Positions 52,397-56,352 of a DNA stretch of 64,000 nucleotides are shown here, one piece after another. The notes under the pieces are model-generated. The model was not told where the DNA came from. It saw only the letters and a program-made list of their open reading frames with translations, and did no database searches. Position 1 is the first letter of the stretch, and every line of letters starts with the position of its first letter. A program made the position numbers and the translations under genes. Source of the DNA: Silvibacterium dinghuense (GTDB lineage: Bacteria > Acidobacteriota > Terriglobia > Terriglobales > Acidobacteriaceae); the NCBI RefSeq assembly GCF_004123295.1, contig NZ_SDMK01000001.1:186001-250000 (forward strand), read 5' to 3'.

Positions 52397-53101
52397 TTAG
52401 GCCGTCACCAGCGATCCGACTTTTTCGCCTGCGATGACGCGGCGGATATTGCCGGAATGATTCATATTAAAGATGATCATCGGCAGATTGTTATCCTTGC
52501 ACAGGCTCACCGCGGTAGTATCCATGACCTTCAGACCCAGCCGCAGGATTTCCATGTAGGTAATCTGCTCGAATTTGACGGCATCCTTGGTGATAACGGG
52601 ATCGGCATTGTAGATGCCTTCCACCTTGGTTGCCTTGAGCAGCACATCGGCCTTGATCTCCATTGCCCGGAGCGAAGCCGCCGTATCGGTGGAGAAATAA
52701 GGATTTCCAGTGCCAGCAGCAAAGATCACCACCCTGCCTTTTTCCAGATGCCGGATGGCCCGGCGCCGAATATAAGGCTCGGCGACCTGATTCATCTCGA
52801 TTGCGGACATGACACGGCAGTGCAGTCCCTGCTTTTCAAGCGCATCCTGAATCGCGAGCGCATTGATCACCGTGGCCAGCATGCCCATGTTGTCGGCCGA
52901 AACGCGGTCCATGGCCTTTGCTTGTTCGGCAACGCCACGAAAGAAATTCCCGCCCCCGACGACGATGGCCACTTCCACGCCCTGAGCGTGTACTTCCGCG
53001 ATTTCTGCTGCGATCTCGTGAACGCGGACCACATCCACGCCAAAGCCCTTGCCTGCGGCCAGAGCTTCCCCTGAGAGTTTGAGGACGACCCGTTTATACA
53101 T
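52397..53101 (-). CDS. pyrH: UMP kinase
   Basis: It phosphorylates UMP to UDP in pyrimidine synthesis. The 234-residue protein begins [21 protein letters not shown] and has [26 protein letters not shown] and [11 protein letters not shown], typical of bacterial PyrH. The start follows family length; AAGGAGC abuts the ATG closely, and an upstream ATG at 53125 is possible. It is not next to rpsB, tsf and frr as in many bacteria. Confidence 0.96.
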
Positions 53102-53183
53102 GCTCCTTGAAGTATCGCATGGCATGCTTTCCGACGCACAGCCTTGCCCCTCCGAACCGCGATAGCACCCTCTCTGCAAGGCC

Positions 53184-53199
53184 TGTGACGGCCGTCACT
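53184..53199. promoter_or_regulatory. CRP/FNR-type palindrome before usp gene 1
   Basis: TGTGA-CGGCCG-TCACT is a near-perfect TGTGA-N6-TCACA site centred at 53191.5, 55.5 bp before the usp start codon. A similar site is at the same distance before the second usp gene. Confidence 0.6.
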
Positions 53200-53246
53200 G
53201 CCAGGCACCGGCAAGCGGCTGGATAGTAGAGCTGTCAGGAGGGACT

Positions 53247-54215
53247 ATGTCCTACCTCTTCGCAAACAGCGACACGCAACGCCAGCTGCTTATCGCACCA
53301 TCACAGATCGTCGTTGCCACCGACCTTACGGACAGCGAGATTCTTCTGCCGCACATCGTCTCTCAGGCTCTCGCCCATCACGCGCATGTCACTCTGGTGC
53401 ACGCCATCCTGCCAGCGAACCTGCTGACACTGGATGGCACCCTGTCGTACCCCGAGCAGGAAAGGCTGGATCGCAGCATCACCGGCATGGTCATCGATTT
53501 CGGAGCGCGCATCCGCGCTCTGGGCGTCAGCTGCGATGTGGTAGCTGAGCACGGTTTCAGCGCCGATGTGATCCGGAAGCAGATCGAAACGCGCCAGGCG
53601 ACCCGGCTGATCGTGGCCACCCACGGACGGGGCAAGCTCGGCCGCCTGGCCCTTGGCTCCGTAGCGGCCGAGCTGCTTCGCAGCATCACGGTTCCGATCT
53701 TCGCTGTAGGCCGGCATGCCGCATCACAGGTAATGCGGCATGCAACACCCCGCAAGATCCTTCACCCCGTTTCGCTTACCGGCAATTCCCTGGCGCATGC
53801 CGAGTTCGTCCATGCCGTAGCCGCCGATTGCGGAGCACAGCTTACCCTGCTGCACGTTCTCGAGGCGGATCAGCCAGGGAGAACCGACCAAGCCGTTCTT
53901 CGTGCTCAACATGCGCTCAGAGAACTACTGCCGTCTTCCGGGCTCCAGACCAAGGTCGATATCCAGGTATGCCTCGGAGAACGGACCGAAAAAATTCTCG
54001 AGTATGCCGATCGTATCTCGGCGGATTGGATTATAGCTGGCCTGGGCGCCAAGCCACCTTACTGGCCTCTCCAGGAAAGCACCGCCTATCGCCTGATGGC
54101 CAGCGCACTATGCCCGGTCTTTACCTGCGGCCGGAAAGCCATCGGGGAAAAGCCTCCGCTTGCGGCACTGGAAGAGAGCAGAGTTTCGGCCCAGGCGGGC
54201 AAGCTCTATTCGTGA
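53247..54215 (+). CDS. universal stress protein with two Usp domains (1)
   Basis: The 322-residue protein consists of two UspA-type folds. The first (residues about 15-155) has VVATDLTDSEILLPH and the nucleotide-binding loop LIVATHGRGKLGRLALGSVAAELLRS, matching G-2x-G-9x-G-[ST] only approximately. The second (about 170-310) is divergent and lacks a clear ATP loop. GGAGGGACT is the ribosome binding site. Tandem-domain Usp proteins are commonly induced by hypoxia, nitrosative or envelope stress. Followed at 83 bp by a small zinc-ribbon gene. Confidence 0.88.
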   Translation: MSYLFANSDTQRQLLIAPSQIVVATDLTDSEILLPHIVSQALAHHAHVTLVHAILPANLLTLDGTLSYPEQERLDRSITGMVIDFGARIRALGVSCDVVAEHGFSADVIRKQIETRQATRLIVATHGRGKLGRLALGSVAAELLRSITVPIFAVGRHAASQVMRHATPRKILHPVSLTGNSLAHAEFVHAVAADCGAQLTLLHVLEADQPGRTDQAVLRAQHALRELLPSSGLQTKVDIQVCLGERTEKILEYADRISADWIIAGLGAKPPYWPLQESTAYRLMASALCPVFTCGRKAIGEKPPLAALEESRVSAQAGKLYS

Positions 54216-54225
54216 AAGGTCTCAC

Positions 54226-54258
54226 CCGTAGCTGCGGGGAGCAATCTCCAGGCTACGG
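54226..54258. other. two-step hairpin between usp 1 and the small zinc-ribbon gene
   Basis: CCGTAGC and GCTACGG form the outer stem and GGAG/CTCC the inner stem around CAAT. No T-run follows; it may be an attenuating or stabilising structure. Confidence 0.4.
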
Positions 54259-54297
54259 CGACCGGCAAACCATCGAGCTCGATAGAAAGGAATCCGT

Positions 54298-54552
54298 ATG
54301 CATTGCGCCAACCCTTCATGCCAGGTAGAAGCCAAATACTTTCGCAGCGGCAGCCTGCATTCGGTCGATTGCGGACAGGGCGGCCAGAAGCAGGAAAAGC
54401 GGCAGCGAATCGTCTGGCTCTGCCCGCATTGCACCCGCGAATGGACCGTCGAGAGCTGGCGACCCGCCGGCGAACAGCTCCGCCGTAAACCTCATGCCGA
54501 ATTCTCCCCGATGGAGTCCTACTCTGAAGCTGAACTCGTTCTGCACGGATAA
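54298..54552 (+). CDS. small zinc-ribbon-like protein
   Basis: The 84-residue protein has two cysteine pairs, CANPSC at the N-terminus and LCPHCTREW in the middle, spaced as in a zinc ribbon (a Cys at residue 25 is also present). The charged C-terminus (SYSEAELVLHG) is disordered. A good ribosome binding site, AAAGGAA, lies 7 bp before ATG 54298. It sits between a usp gene and a Crp/Fnr regulator, so a redox or stress role is possible, but no family is recognised. Confidence 0.6.
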   Translation: MHCANPSCQVEAKYFRSGSLHSVDCGQGGQKQEKRQRIVWLCPHCTREWTVESWRPAGEQLRRKPHAEFSPMESYSEAELVLHG

Positions 54553-54611
54553 TCTCCCCGGAAGAGACAGATGGAACGCGTACCTTGCAGGAAATAGCGA
54601 TCAGGAGCACC

Positions 54612-54698
54612 ATGAGAGACAGACTTCGGAACAGCCGATTCCCTCTCCCCTGGTGCCTATGCCATTACCCGGACGCACAGGTGCAGAGAACTGCCTGA
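54612..54698 (+). CDS. possible 28-codon ORF overlapping the crp/fnr start
   Basis: ATG 54612 has an excellent ribosome binding site (CAGGAGCACC) and the frame runs 28 codons to TGA 54696-54698, across the candidate start of the Crp/Fnr gene in another frame. It may be a leader ORF, or the true regulator start with a frame error. Its product is not recognisable. Confidence 0.25.
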   Translation: MRDRLRNSRFPLPWCLCHYPDAQVQRTA

Positions 54699-55369
54699 AC
54701 TGCTCGCAACGTTCTCTCCGCCTTTTCTGTAACCTCGACGACGAGGCTCTGCTTCGCCTGGATGCCATGGGTGTCTTCGTATCCCTGCCCGGACGCGCCG
54801 TGCTGTTTGAAGAGGGAGAAGCTCTGCGCGACGTATTCATCGTCTGCGACGGCCAGCTCAAGCTCTCGGCGACCTCACGTGAAGGCAGGACCATGATCCT
54901 GCGCCTGGCTGCGGCCGGCGATGTGCTGGGACTCAGCGCCGCGCTGAACAATCTTCCCCATGAAGTCACAGCGGAAACGCTCGAACCCACGCGTCTTAAG
55001 GCCATTCGACGGCATGAATTTCTGGCCTTCCTCGAAAGCTATCGCCAGGTGGGTAACAATACCGCGCGCGTGATGGCCCGCGAGTATCAGGAAGTCTTTC
55101 TCGACGCCCGCCGGCTCGCGCTGTCCGGCTCTGCGGCAAGCCGGCTAGGCACTCTACTGCTGGAATGGGGCCGTGCTGCGGCATGCGGCAAACCGGAGCT
55201 GCGCTTTACCATGGCCTTGACGCACGAAGAGCTGGCCAGCATGGCCGGCACCTCGCGTGAGACCGTCACGCGCCTGCTCAACCGCTTCGAAAAGAGCCAT
55301 CTCATTCTGCGCAAGGGCGCGACGCTCACCATCCTCGATCCGGATGGACTGGTCGCCTCCTCGGATTAA
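54659..55369 (+). CDS. Crp/Fnr-family regulator with N-terminal cysteine cluster
   Basis: The 236-residue protein has an N-terminal cysteine group (C12, C15, C24 in ENCLNCSQRSLRLFCNL), a cNMP-type beta barrel (LPGRAVLFEEGEALRDVFIVCDGQLKLS), a dimer helix, and a Crp-type winged helix with recognition helix GTSRETVTRLLNRFE. SRETV-R matches the TGTGA-reading residues of E. coli CRP. The cAMP pocket residues (GE-L and R-S/T) are not conserved (GDVLGLSAAL, HEVTAET), so another ligand or an Fe-S cluster is likely. Start is uncertain: ATG 54659 has no ribosome binding site, GTG 54653 is adjacent, and a leader ORF overlaps. Confidence 0.88.
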   Translation: MPLPGRTGAENCLNCSQRSLRLFCNLDDEALLRLDAMGVFVSLPGRAVLFEEGEALRDVFIVCDGQLKLSATSREGRTMILRLAAAGDVLGLSAALNNLPHEVTAETLEPTRLKAIRRHEFLAFLESYRQVGNNTARVMAREYQEVFLDARRLALSGSAASRLGTLLLEWGRAAACGKPELRFTMALTHEELASMAGTSRETVTRLLNRFEKSHLILRKGATLTILDPDGLVASSD

Positions 55370-55370
55370 G

Positions 55371-55402
55371 CCGCAGCCTGTGATCCTCGTCACAGGCTGC
55401 GG
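55371..55402. promoter_or_regulatory. CRP-type operator in a 13-bp-arm inverted repeat
   Basis: CCGCAGCCTGTGA and TCACAGGCTGCGG are perfect inverted arms around TCCTCG, containing TGTGA-N6-TCACA (55379-55394). It lies one base after the regulator stop and could be both operator and transcription terminator, but no T-run follows. Confidence 0.6.
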
Positions 55403-55420
55403 TGACTCGAATCACCGCAG
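55397..55420. promoter_or_regulatory. second CRP-type operator before usp gene 2
   Basis: CTGCGGTGA and TCACCGCAG are perfect inverted arms around CTCGAA, with GGTGA-N6-TCACC. The centre at 55408.5 is 56.5 bp before the usp start, the same as in usp gene 1. It overlaps the end of the first palindrome by six bases, so two dimers would compete or stack. Confidence 0.6.
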
Positions 55421-55464
55421 AAATAGCCAAAACGCGCGATAGTCATGGCGAAGGGAAAACTGCC

Positions 55465-56352
55465 ATGCAAACCAGTCTTAAATTCTCCACCATCGTCCTC
55501 GCTACCGATCTCGGCATGACCGCATCTTCGGCACTCCGCTATGCGCAGGCCCTGGCTCGGCAGCACGGCGCAACGCTGATCATCGTGCATGTGATCGACC
55601 CGGTAGGCTATGCCTTTCCCGAGGGCACAACGCAATTCGCAAGACTCGAGGAGCAGGCACGGCACGAGGTCGAACGCATGGAGGCCGAACTCCGGCTGCA
55701 GAATATTCCCGTGCATTCTGTGCTGGCACGCGGCACGATCTGCGAACGCATTCTGCAGGCAGTGCAAGACCACCATGCTGACCTCCTGGTGCTGGGAACA
55801 CGCGCTCGCACAGAGGCGGGACGCGCAGCGTTGGGAATGATCGCCCGCCATCTGCTGGCCGAAGCTCCATGCCCCATCCTCACCGTTTCCCCCGATGCCG
55901 AAGCATTGCTTCCCTGGGCAGGCCACTGGCGGCGCGTGCTTGCCGCTACGGACTTCTCTGCTGCTTCGCTGACAGCGCTCGAGACGGCGCATCGCATCGC
56001 CAATTCGCACCTGGTCGCATTGCATGTCTCTCCGAGCACAGGCAACGAGCAATCCCTCAAGCTGGAACAGTTACGCTTCATCGCGCCCTTCAACGAATCG
56101 CATACCGTGCCCGTGGAGCATGTCGTCACACCAGGCGACCCGGCAGAGACGATCGCCAGCTATGCCCGCAGACTTCACGCCGATCTGGTTGTTCTCGGAG
56201 CTCCGGATAATGAGCTGTCAGAAGAGGATTACCCTTCGAGCACGATTCTGAATGTGATTGCGCATGTGCCTTGCCCAGTCCTGTGCGTACGCGCGGGAGT
56301 TCAGACTGACGCGACAGCAGCATTTGCGGCCGAAGCCGCTGTCCCGTGCTGA
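55465..56352 (+). CDS. universal stress protein with two Usp domains (2)
   Basis: The 295-residue protein has two Usp folds. Domain 1 has TIVLATDLGMTASSALRYAQALA and LLVLGTRARTEAGRAALGMIARHLL; domain 2 starts near RVLAATDFSAASLTALETAH and has LVVLGAPDNELSEEDYPSSTI. It is a distant paralogue of the gene at 53247. ATG 55465 follows AAGGGA; an upstream GTG-frame extension lies within the operators. It probably belongs to the same Crp/Fnr-controlled regulon. Convergent with the glycosidase-like gene 23 bp away. Confidence 0.88.
   Translation: MQTSLKFSTIVLATDLGMTASSALRYAQALARQHGATLIIVHVIDPVGYAFPEGTTQFARLEEQARHEVERMEAELRLQNIPVHSVLARGTICERILQAVQDHHADLLVLGTRARTEAGRAALGMIARHLLAEAPCPILTVSPDAEALLPWAGHWRRVLAATDFSAASLTALETAHRIANSHLVALHVSPSTGNEQSLKLEQLRFIAPFNESHTVPVEHVVTPGDPAETIASYARRLHADLVVLGAPDNELSEEDYPSSTILNVIAHVPCPVLCVRAGVQTDATAAFAAEAAVPC

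Follow-up and report, generated by a model that had tools for sequence, protein, structure and literature searches.

Organization of the island and its operators

This work concerns a four-gene island of Silvibacterium dinghuense, in which two genes for universal stress proteins (usp1 and usp2) enclose the gene of a Crp/Fnr-family regulator, and the predicted palindromic operators in front of both usp genes. The island lies within a stretch of 64,000 nucleotides (the window; positions 186001-250000 of contig C1 of the 5.1-Mb genome, which comprises nine contigs), and all positions given below are those of the window unless another contig or locus is named. The genes are arranged on the plus strand in the order usp1 (53247-54215, 322 residues), a small zinc-ribbon-like open reading frame (ORF), the regulator gene (54659-55369, 236 residues) and usp2 (55465-56352, 295 residues). 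The Pfam family PF00582 matched both Usp proteins in two stretches each, with 87.9 and 141.1 bits for the usp1/usp2 pair, and each comprises two Usp domains. As the layout is shared with relatives, it suggests a hitherto unstudied low-oxygen switch in Acidobacteria.

An original prediction, made from the letters of this stretch, had proposed CRP-like operators in front of the two usp genes and one activator, the regulator encoded between them, for both promoters. The sites are present at the predicted places. Upstream of usp1, the operator S1 (53184-53199, plus strand; TGTGACGGCCGTCACT, TGTGA and TCACT around CGGCCG) is centred at 53191.5. Upstream of usp2, there are two inverted repeats, at 55371-55402 (13-nt arms, 100% complementary) and at 55397-55420 (12-nt arms, 92%). 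The former includes the distal operator S2 (55379-55394, plus strand; TGTGATCCTCGTCACA, TGTGA and TCACA around TCCTCG), and its perfect 13-nt arms exceed the need of an operator; the latter includes the proximal operator S3 (55401-55416, plus strand; GGTGACTCGAATCACC, GGTGA and TCACC around CTCGAA), centred at 55408.5. The similar distances between the nearest sites and the start codons, which had been taken as an argument for a common activator, were correctly stated (55.5 bp from the S1 centre to the ATG at 53247 and 56.5 bp from the S3 centre to the ATG at 55465). However, spacing to a start codon is uninformative in this respect and was replaced as evidence by the spacing to a −10-like element. 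The hexamer GATAGT occurs on the plus strand in front of usp1 (53222-53227) and of usp2 (55438-55443), and begins 30.5 bp after the centre of S1 and 29.5 bp after the centre of S3. This constant distance and the spacing of exactly 22 bp between S2 and S3 were both absent from the original prediction.

The core motif GTGAN6TCAC occurs four times in the window, all copies being located within 53185-55415. Shuffled versions of the window had a mean of 0.83 copies, and four were reached in two of 100 shuffles. Across the genome, the core site was found at 93 places as compared to 33 for the backward control; thus, a single site carries little meaning. A core site with NATANT 21-24 bases downstream had four matches in the genome, two of them being the usp1 and usp2 promoters (none for the backward control), and the strict tandem GTGN8CAC-N8-GTGN8CAC was found at one place, the usp2 operator (none for the control).

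In class II promoters of the Crp/Fnr family, as known for E. coli CRP and FNR, an activator bound near −41.5 substitutes for the −35 element. With transcript starts predicted at seven bases past the last base of the hexamer, i.e., near 53234 and 55450, S1 would be located at −42.5, S3 at −41.5 and S2 at −63.5, and the distance between site and −10-like element is that of a class II Crp/Fnr promoter. No −35/−10 pair was found in 53080-55500. The class II pattern had 19 matches in the genome (control 3), nine of which were within called genes. Four had a called start downstream: usp1, usp2, a phosphoketolase gene and C6:67158. C6:67158, the genome's third site with the full consensus, was not accepted as a class II promoter, as an AGGAG and an ATG lie between site and hexamer.

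Conservation of the operators in related genomes

An alignment of 14 regulator homologues was used to collect 80 loci (1.23 Mb) from named genomes. The loci were selected via the regulator and not via the operators, and their genes were called with a simple script. GTGA-N6-TCAC had 175 matches in these loci, whereas ten other spacer lengths gave 5-20 each, and 28 of the 33 pairs of core sites less than 121 bp apart were spaced by exactly 22 bp. A core site was located within 300 nt of 67 of the 80 usp genes, as compared to 62 of 768 other genes.

For the analysis of usp promoters, the 80 loci were combined with L058, L059, L061, L062, L064 and the window, and the duplicates L057, L060 and L063 were removed. 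Upstream sequence of at least 150 nt was available for 89 usp genes, of which 75 had a core site at most 400 nt upstream. A partner matching at least five of eight positions was present exactly 22 bp away in 66 of these 75 promoters (other offsets: mean 2.8, largest 11); with six of eight positions, the number was 62 (mean 0.3, largest 2). The hexamer.A...T started 29 or 30 bases past the proximal centre in 73 of the 75, the best other pair of adjacent offsets reaching 20, and the positions of both GATAGT elements of the window are accordingly conserved in relatives. The spacer between site and hexamer had a mean identity of 29% in the 66 tandem promoters, as compared to 98% for the distal and 84% for the proximal half-sites, and among 52 tandem promoters with non-redundant spacers the hexamer was kept in 50. 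A usp gene was found at most three genes from the best regulator gene in 60 of 89 sequences (three duplicates included). Homologous islands had been named beforehand as the place where loss of the palindromes would speak against a regulatory role, and there the palindromes are kept.

The tandem operator was detected in 79 of 150 genomes searched (backward control: 12). If a close regulator is defined by a best E value of up to 1e-40, the tandem occurred in 29 of the 33 genomes that have such a regulator and in one of the 28 that lack it (61 genomes; Fisher p 5.6e-12), and within the family in 27 of 30 versus none of seven (p 1.2e-5); both p-values are too strong, as the genomes are not independent and some are incomplete. 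The exceptions were G001, G005, G035 and G051, which have a close regulator without the strict tandem, and G044, which has the tandem without a close regulator. By these comparisons, the operator observation is confirmed and is stronger than the original prediction could know.

The regulator combines CRP-type reading residues with conserved cysteines

The regulator was assigned to the Crp/Fnr family by matches to PF00027 (60.8 bits, cut-off 27.5) and, following it, PF13545 (67.9 bits, cut-off 27). None of the NCBIfam models reached its cut-off for the protein, the FNR model scoring 60.6 versus 228 bits. The recognition helix is SRETVTR, in agreement with the original prediction. E. coli CRP reads DNA by R180, E181 and R185 and contacts cyclic AMP (cAMP) by E72 and R82, and the cluster ligands of FNR are C20, C23, C29 and C122. 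In an alignment with E. coli CRP, the reading residues are kept as R200, E201 and R205, which were invariant in 81 of 81 homologues. In contrast, the cAMP contacts are absent, E72 falling into a gap and R82 being replaced by His101. The likeness to CRP proposed earlier therefore holds for the DNA-reading residues and the operator, but does not extend to the sensor, for which four conserved cysteines are the candidates. Two of these, C12 and C15, align with C20 and C23 of FNR, a third follows in a C12-X2-C15-X8-C24 arrangement, and C63 is an extra cysteine which pairs with an arginine of FNR. Among the homologues covering the respective positions, C12 was kept in 78 of 78, C15 in 78 of 78, C24 in 79 of 80 and C63 in 80 of 81.

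A Granulicella paralogue (L147:10001-10633) has tryptophan and arginine at positions 24 and 63 and also lacks the CX2C motif in the upstream frame. This joint loss, in a sample of one, suggests that the four cysteines may act together, and the paralogue represents a natural control for the sensor.

In the genome of the window, one protein exceeded the cut-off of the Crp helix-turn-helix (HTH) domain, the sole weaker match being an iron-dependent repressor. A search with the regulator gave two matches in this genome, the second one distant, versus 15 in Silvibacterium bohemicum (G006), so that the number of paralogues differs strongly within one genus. A regulator of acidobacterial type with 50% identity is also present on L133, a contig filed under Rhodanobacteraceae, which may be a misbinned contig or indicate a transfer.

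Candidate targets beyond the island

The original prediction had further regarded the island as a self-contained stress regulon. The two usp genes remain as candidate targets, but the regulon is unlikely to be self-contained. In the genome of the window, the phosphoketolase gene (L066, 3916-6354) has a site centred about 63 nt before its start and TAGCAT at 29; as this represents a third promoter of the same layout, a fully self-contained regulon was dropped. The low-oxygen gene set of the relatives also speaks against it. Two further Usp genes of the genome, one of them single-domain, have no site upstream.

In the 80 loci, the full geometry was found in front of 30 of the 768 other genes, and a Pfam scan covered 19 of these. 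They encode multihaem cytochromes (4), cytochrome bd subunit I (2), pyruvate:ferredoxin oxidoreductase (PFOR; 2) and radical SAM proteins (2), and one each of a ScdA/hemerythrin protein, a NuoE-like ferredoxin, a cbb3-type cytochrome c, a Fer4_5 ferredoxin-type protein, an aldehyde dehydrogenase, a nitroreductase, YwiC, CheX and a protein without family. Further families, including Usp proteins and a glycoside hydrolase, come from an overlapping target list, of which 29 of 37 entries were scanned as a set.

In Acidobacterium capsulatum ATCC 51196 (G079), a single close regulator (38% identity) was detected, besides one weak and partial match. The gene of the close regulator adjoins usp genes, and two usp promoters have the 22-bp tandem with GATGCT at 29. 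The class II pattern had 28 matches in this genome (control 2), five inside and 23 outside of called genes, and 21 of them had a start at most 250 nt away. The corresponding genes include cydA, pta, two usp genes and those for a multihaem cytochrome c, rubrerythrin, the NiFe hydrogenase small subunit, HypF, a Zn-alcohol dehydrogenase, an aldehyde dehydrogenase, a P-type ATPase, two BON proteins, a radical-SAM protein, a cytochrome c assembly protein, a flavodoxin-fold protein, an amine oxidase, a nitronate monooxygenase-like protein, a VTT protein and two proteins without family. With class II sites before the hydrogenase small-subunit gene and hypF (L244, L245), hydrogen use may join the regulon.

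A transcriptome study of A. capsulatum reported that usp, cydAB, rbr, pta and adhP were upregulated when O2 fell from 10 to 0.1 µM (PMC11636273). The published induction fits the predicted target set. The transcriptome paper makes no mention of FNR, CRP or hydrogenase, and its forerunner (PMC8407424) no mention of FNR or CRP.

A putative low-oxygen regulon and alternative explanations

Taken together, the island forms, with a probability of roughly two in three, the core of a low-oxygen regulon controlled by an FNR-like activator of the Crp/Fnr family, probably an iron-sulfur protein, that acts through CRP-type operators. The regulator would read TGTGA-N6-TCACA by a helix of CRP specificity, one dimer binding to S1 and two dimers binding to S2 and S3, which are 22 bp or about two helical turns apart. 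The proximal dimer at about −41.5/−42.5 would replace the −35 element and activate RNA polymerase at a weak −10 as in class II promoters. At −63.5, the distal dimer may raise occupancy or make a second contact. Rather than cAMP, the regulator would most likely sense a fall in oxygen or a linked change in redox state, through a metal site, probably an Fe-S cluster, formed by C12, C15, C24 and C63. The output would comprise the two tandem-domain universal stress proteins and the phosphoketolase encoded elsewhere in the genome, and autoregulation is probable if the regulator gene shares the usp1 transcript. The earlier interpretation is supported in part and needs a change in two respects: the sensor resembles FNR more than CRP, and the regulon exceeds the island. 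A common activator for both usp promoters is supported by the sole Crp-HTH protein above the cut-off in the genome, its CRP-type reading residues and the palindromes kept in homologous islands.

A number of observations weigh against this reading. S1 is a single site without a partner at 22 bp, leaving usp1 without a distal operator, and GATAGT is identical to TATAAT at four of six positions. In the comparison with relatives, the 400 nt in front of 14 of the 89 usp genes contain no core site, the strict tandem is missing from four of the 33 genomes in which a close regulator occurs, and several genomes lacking both regulator and tandem are incomplete. A core site within 300 nt was found for 21 of 88 crp genes and the full geometry for 10 of 88, and a conserved site of its own is not claimed for the regulator gene. 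Some relatives have many Crp/Fnr paralogues, possibly reading the same sites. The ligand set of FNR is not present in the regulator, C24 being three residues off C29 and Lys114 replacing C122. CheX, YwiC, BON and glycoside hydrolase targets have no clear tie to oxygen. The agreement with the transcriptome is an after-the-fact comparison in which genes were not matched by locus tag, and 41% of the A. capsulatum genes rose at 0.1 µM O2 (PMC11636273).

Among the alternatives, it is conceivable, albeit rather unlikely, that the same operators and class II activation serve a signal other than oxygen, with a CRP-like or constitutively active Crp/Fnr protein responding to nutrient, nitrosative or general stress and the cysteines either forming a switch for redox state or NO or binding zinc in a structural role. 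The reading residues and the operator are indeed of CRP type, the ScdA/hemerythrin and rubrerythrin targets would also suit nitrosative or redox stress, and usp genes are inducible by many stresses. However, CRP's E72 and R82 are missing, cytochrome bd, PFOR and multihaem cytochromes are prominent among the targets, and falling O2 was the cause of the published induction (PMC11636273). That the operators are real but mainly read by another regulator of the same genome is improbable: several relatives have many Crp/Fnr paralogues, but in the genome of the window a single Crp-HTH protein exceeds the cut-off, the only weaker match to this domain being the iron-dependent repressor, and the tandem operator tends to be found in genomes with a close regulator. 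The second, distant match of the regulator in the genome has to be borne in mind here. It is very improbable that the palindromes, rather than being operators, function in RNA as hairpins (terminators or mRNA stabilisers) or are repeats due to chance, since, although S2 with its flanks folds as RNA (−32.2 kcal/mol, z −5.7) about ten bases past the regulator gene, there is no T-run, no terminator was found in 53080-55500, S1 is located between divergent genes, and half-sites, their six-base spacing, the pairing at 22 bp and the distance to the −10 element are conserved in relatives.

Relation to known Crp/Fnr systems

The proposed FNR-like activator shares with FNR of E. coli and FnrL-type O2 sensors of Proteobacteria the Crp/Fnr family, an N-terminal CX2C aligned with C20 and C23 of FNR, the lack of cAMP contacts and low-oxygen targets. 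The known FNR site is TTGAT-N4-ATCAA, whereas the regulator of the window is predicted to read TGTGA-N6-TCACA; it further differs from FNR by the shifted C24, the lysine at the position of C122 and the location of Cys63 on another stretch. The two proteins are 25% identical, and the regulator is far below the NCBIfam cut-off for FNR. Control of usp genes by an FNR-type protein is already known, as FnrL of Dinoroseobacter shibae directly activates three of them (PMC5398030). In E. coli K-12 (L251:173-2027), uspE, which encodes a tandem-domain Usp protein, adjoins fnr, so that a linkage of Fnr and Usp is found in two phyla.

The operator consensus is likewise known from Bacillus FNR (TGTGANNNNNNTCACA; PMC8151001), an O2 sensor with a [4Fe-4S] cluster in the C-terminal DNA-binding domain (PMC12937710). 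Unlike in Bacillus FNR, the conserved cysteines of the regulator are N-terminal, and none occurs within its last 50 residues (187-236). E. coli CRP and mycobacterial Crp share with it the R-E-R reading residues and the operator, and neighbouring Crp sites are known from mycobacteria: cydAB of Mycobacterium smegmatis is driven by two Crp sites, 28 bp apart by the coordinates given (PMC7739888), and whiB1 of M. tuberculosis has tandem activating and inhibitory Crp sites (PMC4117774). In contrast to these proteins, the regulator lacks cAMP contacts and has four conserved cysteines, and its many promoters share a constant 22-bp spacing and the predicted class II placement.

In openly licensed texts, a literature search found no Crp/Fnr regulator or usp operator of Acidobacteria. 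As far as these searches show, the cysteine arrangement, the fixed 22-bp pairing across many promoters and the phylum are new. It is possible, though we propose it tentatively and with more doubt than confidence, that the regulator represents a separate class of low-oxygen sensors in Acidobacteriota, which would hold a [4Fe-4S] cluster by CX2CX8C and a fourth cysteine placed unlike in FNR, bind CRP-type DNA as two stacked dimers at 22 bp and control usp, cytochrome bd, PFOR, pta and hydrogenase genes family-wide.

Acidobacteria are among the commonest soil bacteria, and oxygen swings are large in their habitat. The locus provides a candidate for the regulator, together with an operator grammar (a tandem at 22 bp and a −10 at fixed distance) and a target list for a cultured strain, by which control of the low-oxygen response becomes directly testable.

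Further features of the locus

The gene 5' of usp1, which is oriented in the opposite direction, belongs to the amino acid kinase family (by eye, a uridylate kinase). The fourth core palindrome of the window (54212-54225, plus strand; GTGAAAGGTCTCAC), an addition to the sites named in the original prediction, overlaps the stop codon of usp1 and is a possible weak extra site before the regulator, its function being doubtful. The zinc-ribbon-like ORF between usp1 and the regulator gene (54298-54552, plus strand, 84 residues) matched PF08274 below the cut-off of that family. A homologue was present in five of 85 loci, including those of Silvibacterium bohemicum and A. capsulatum, and the ORF was therefore dropped as a constant component of the island. 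Finally, a 28-codon ORF at 54612-54698, preceded by AGGAG, extends in a different frame across the start of the regulator gene and may represent a leader or mediate translational coupling.

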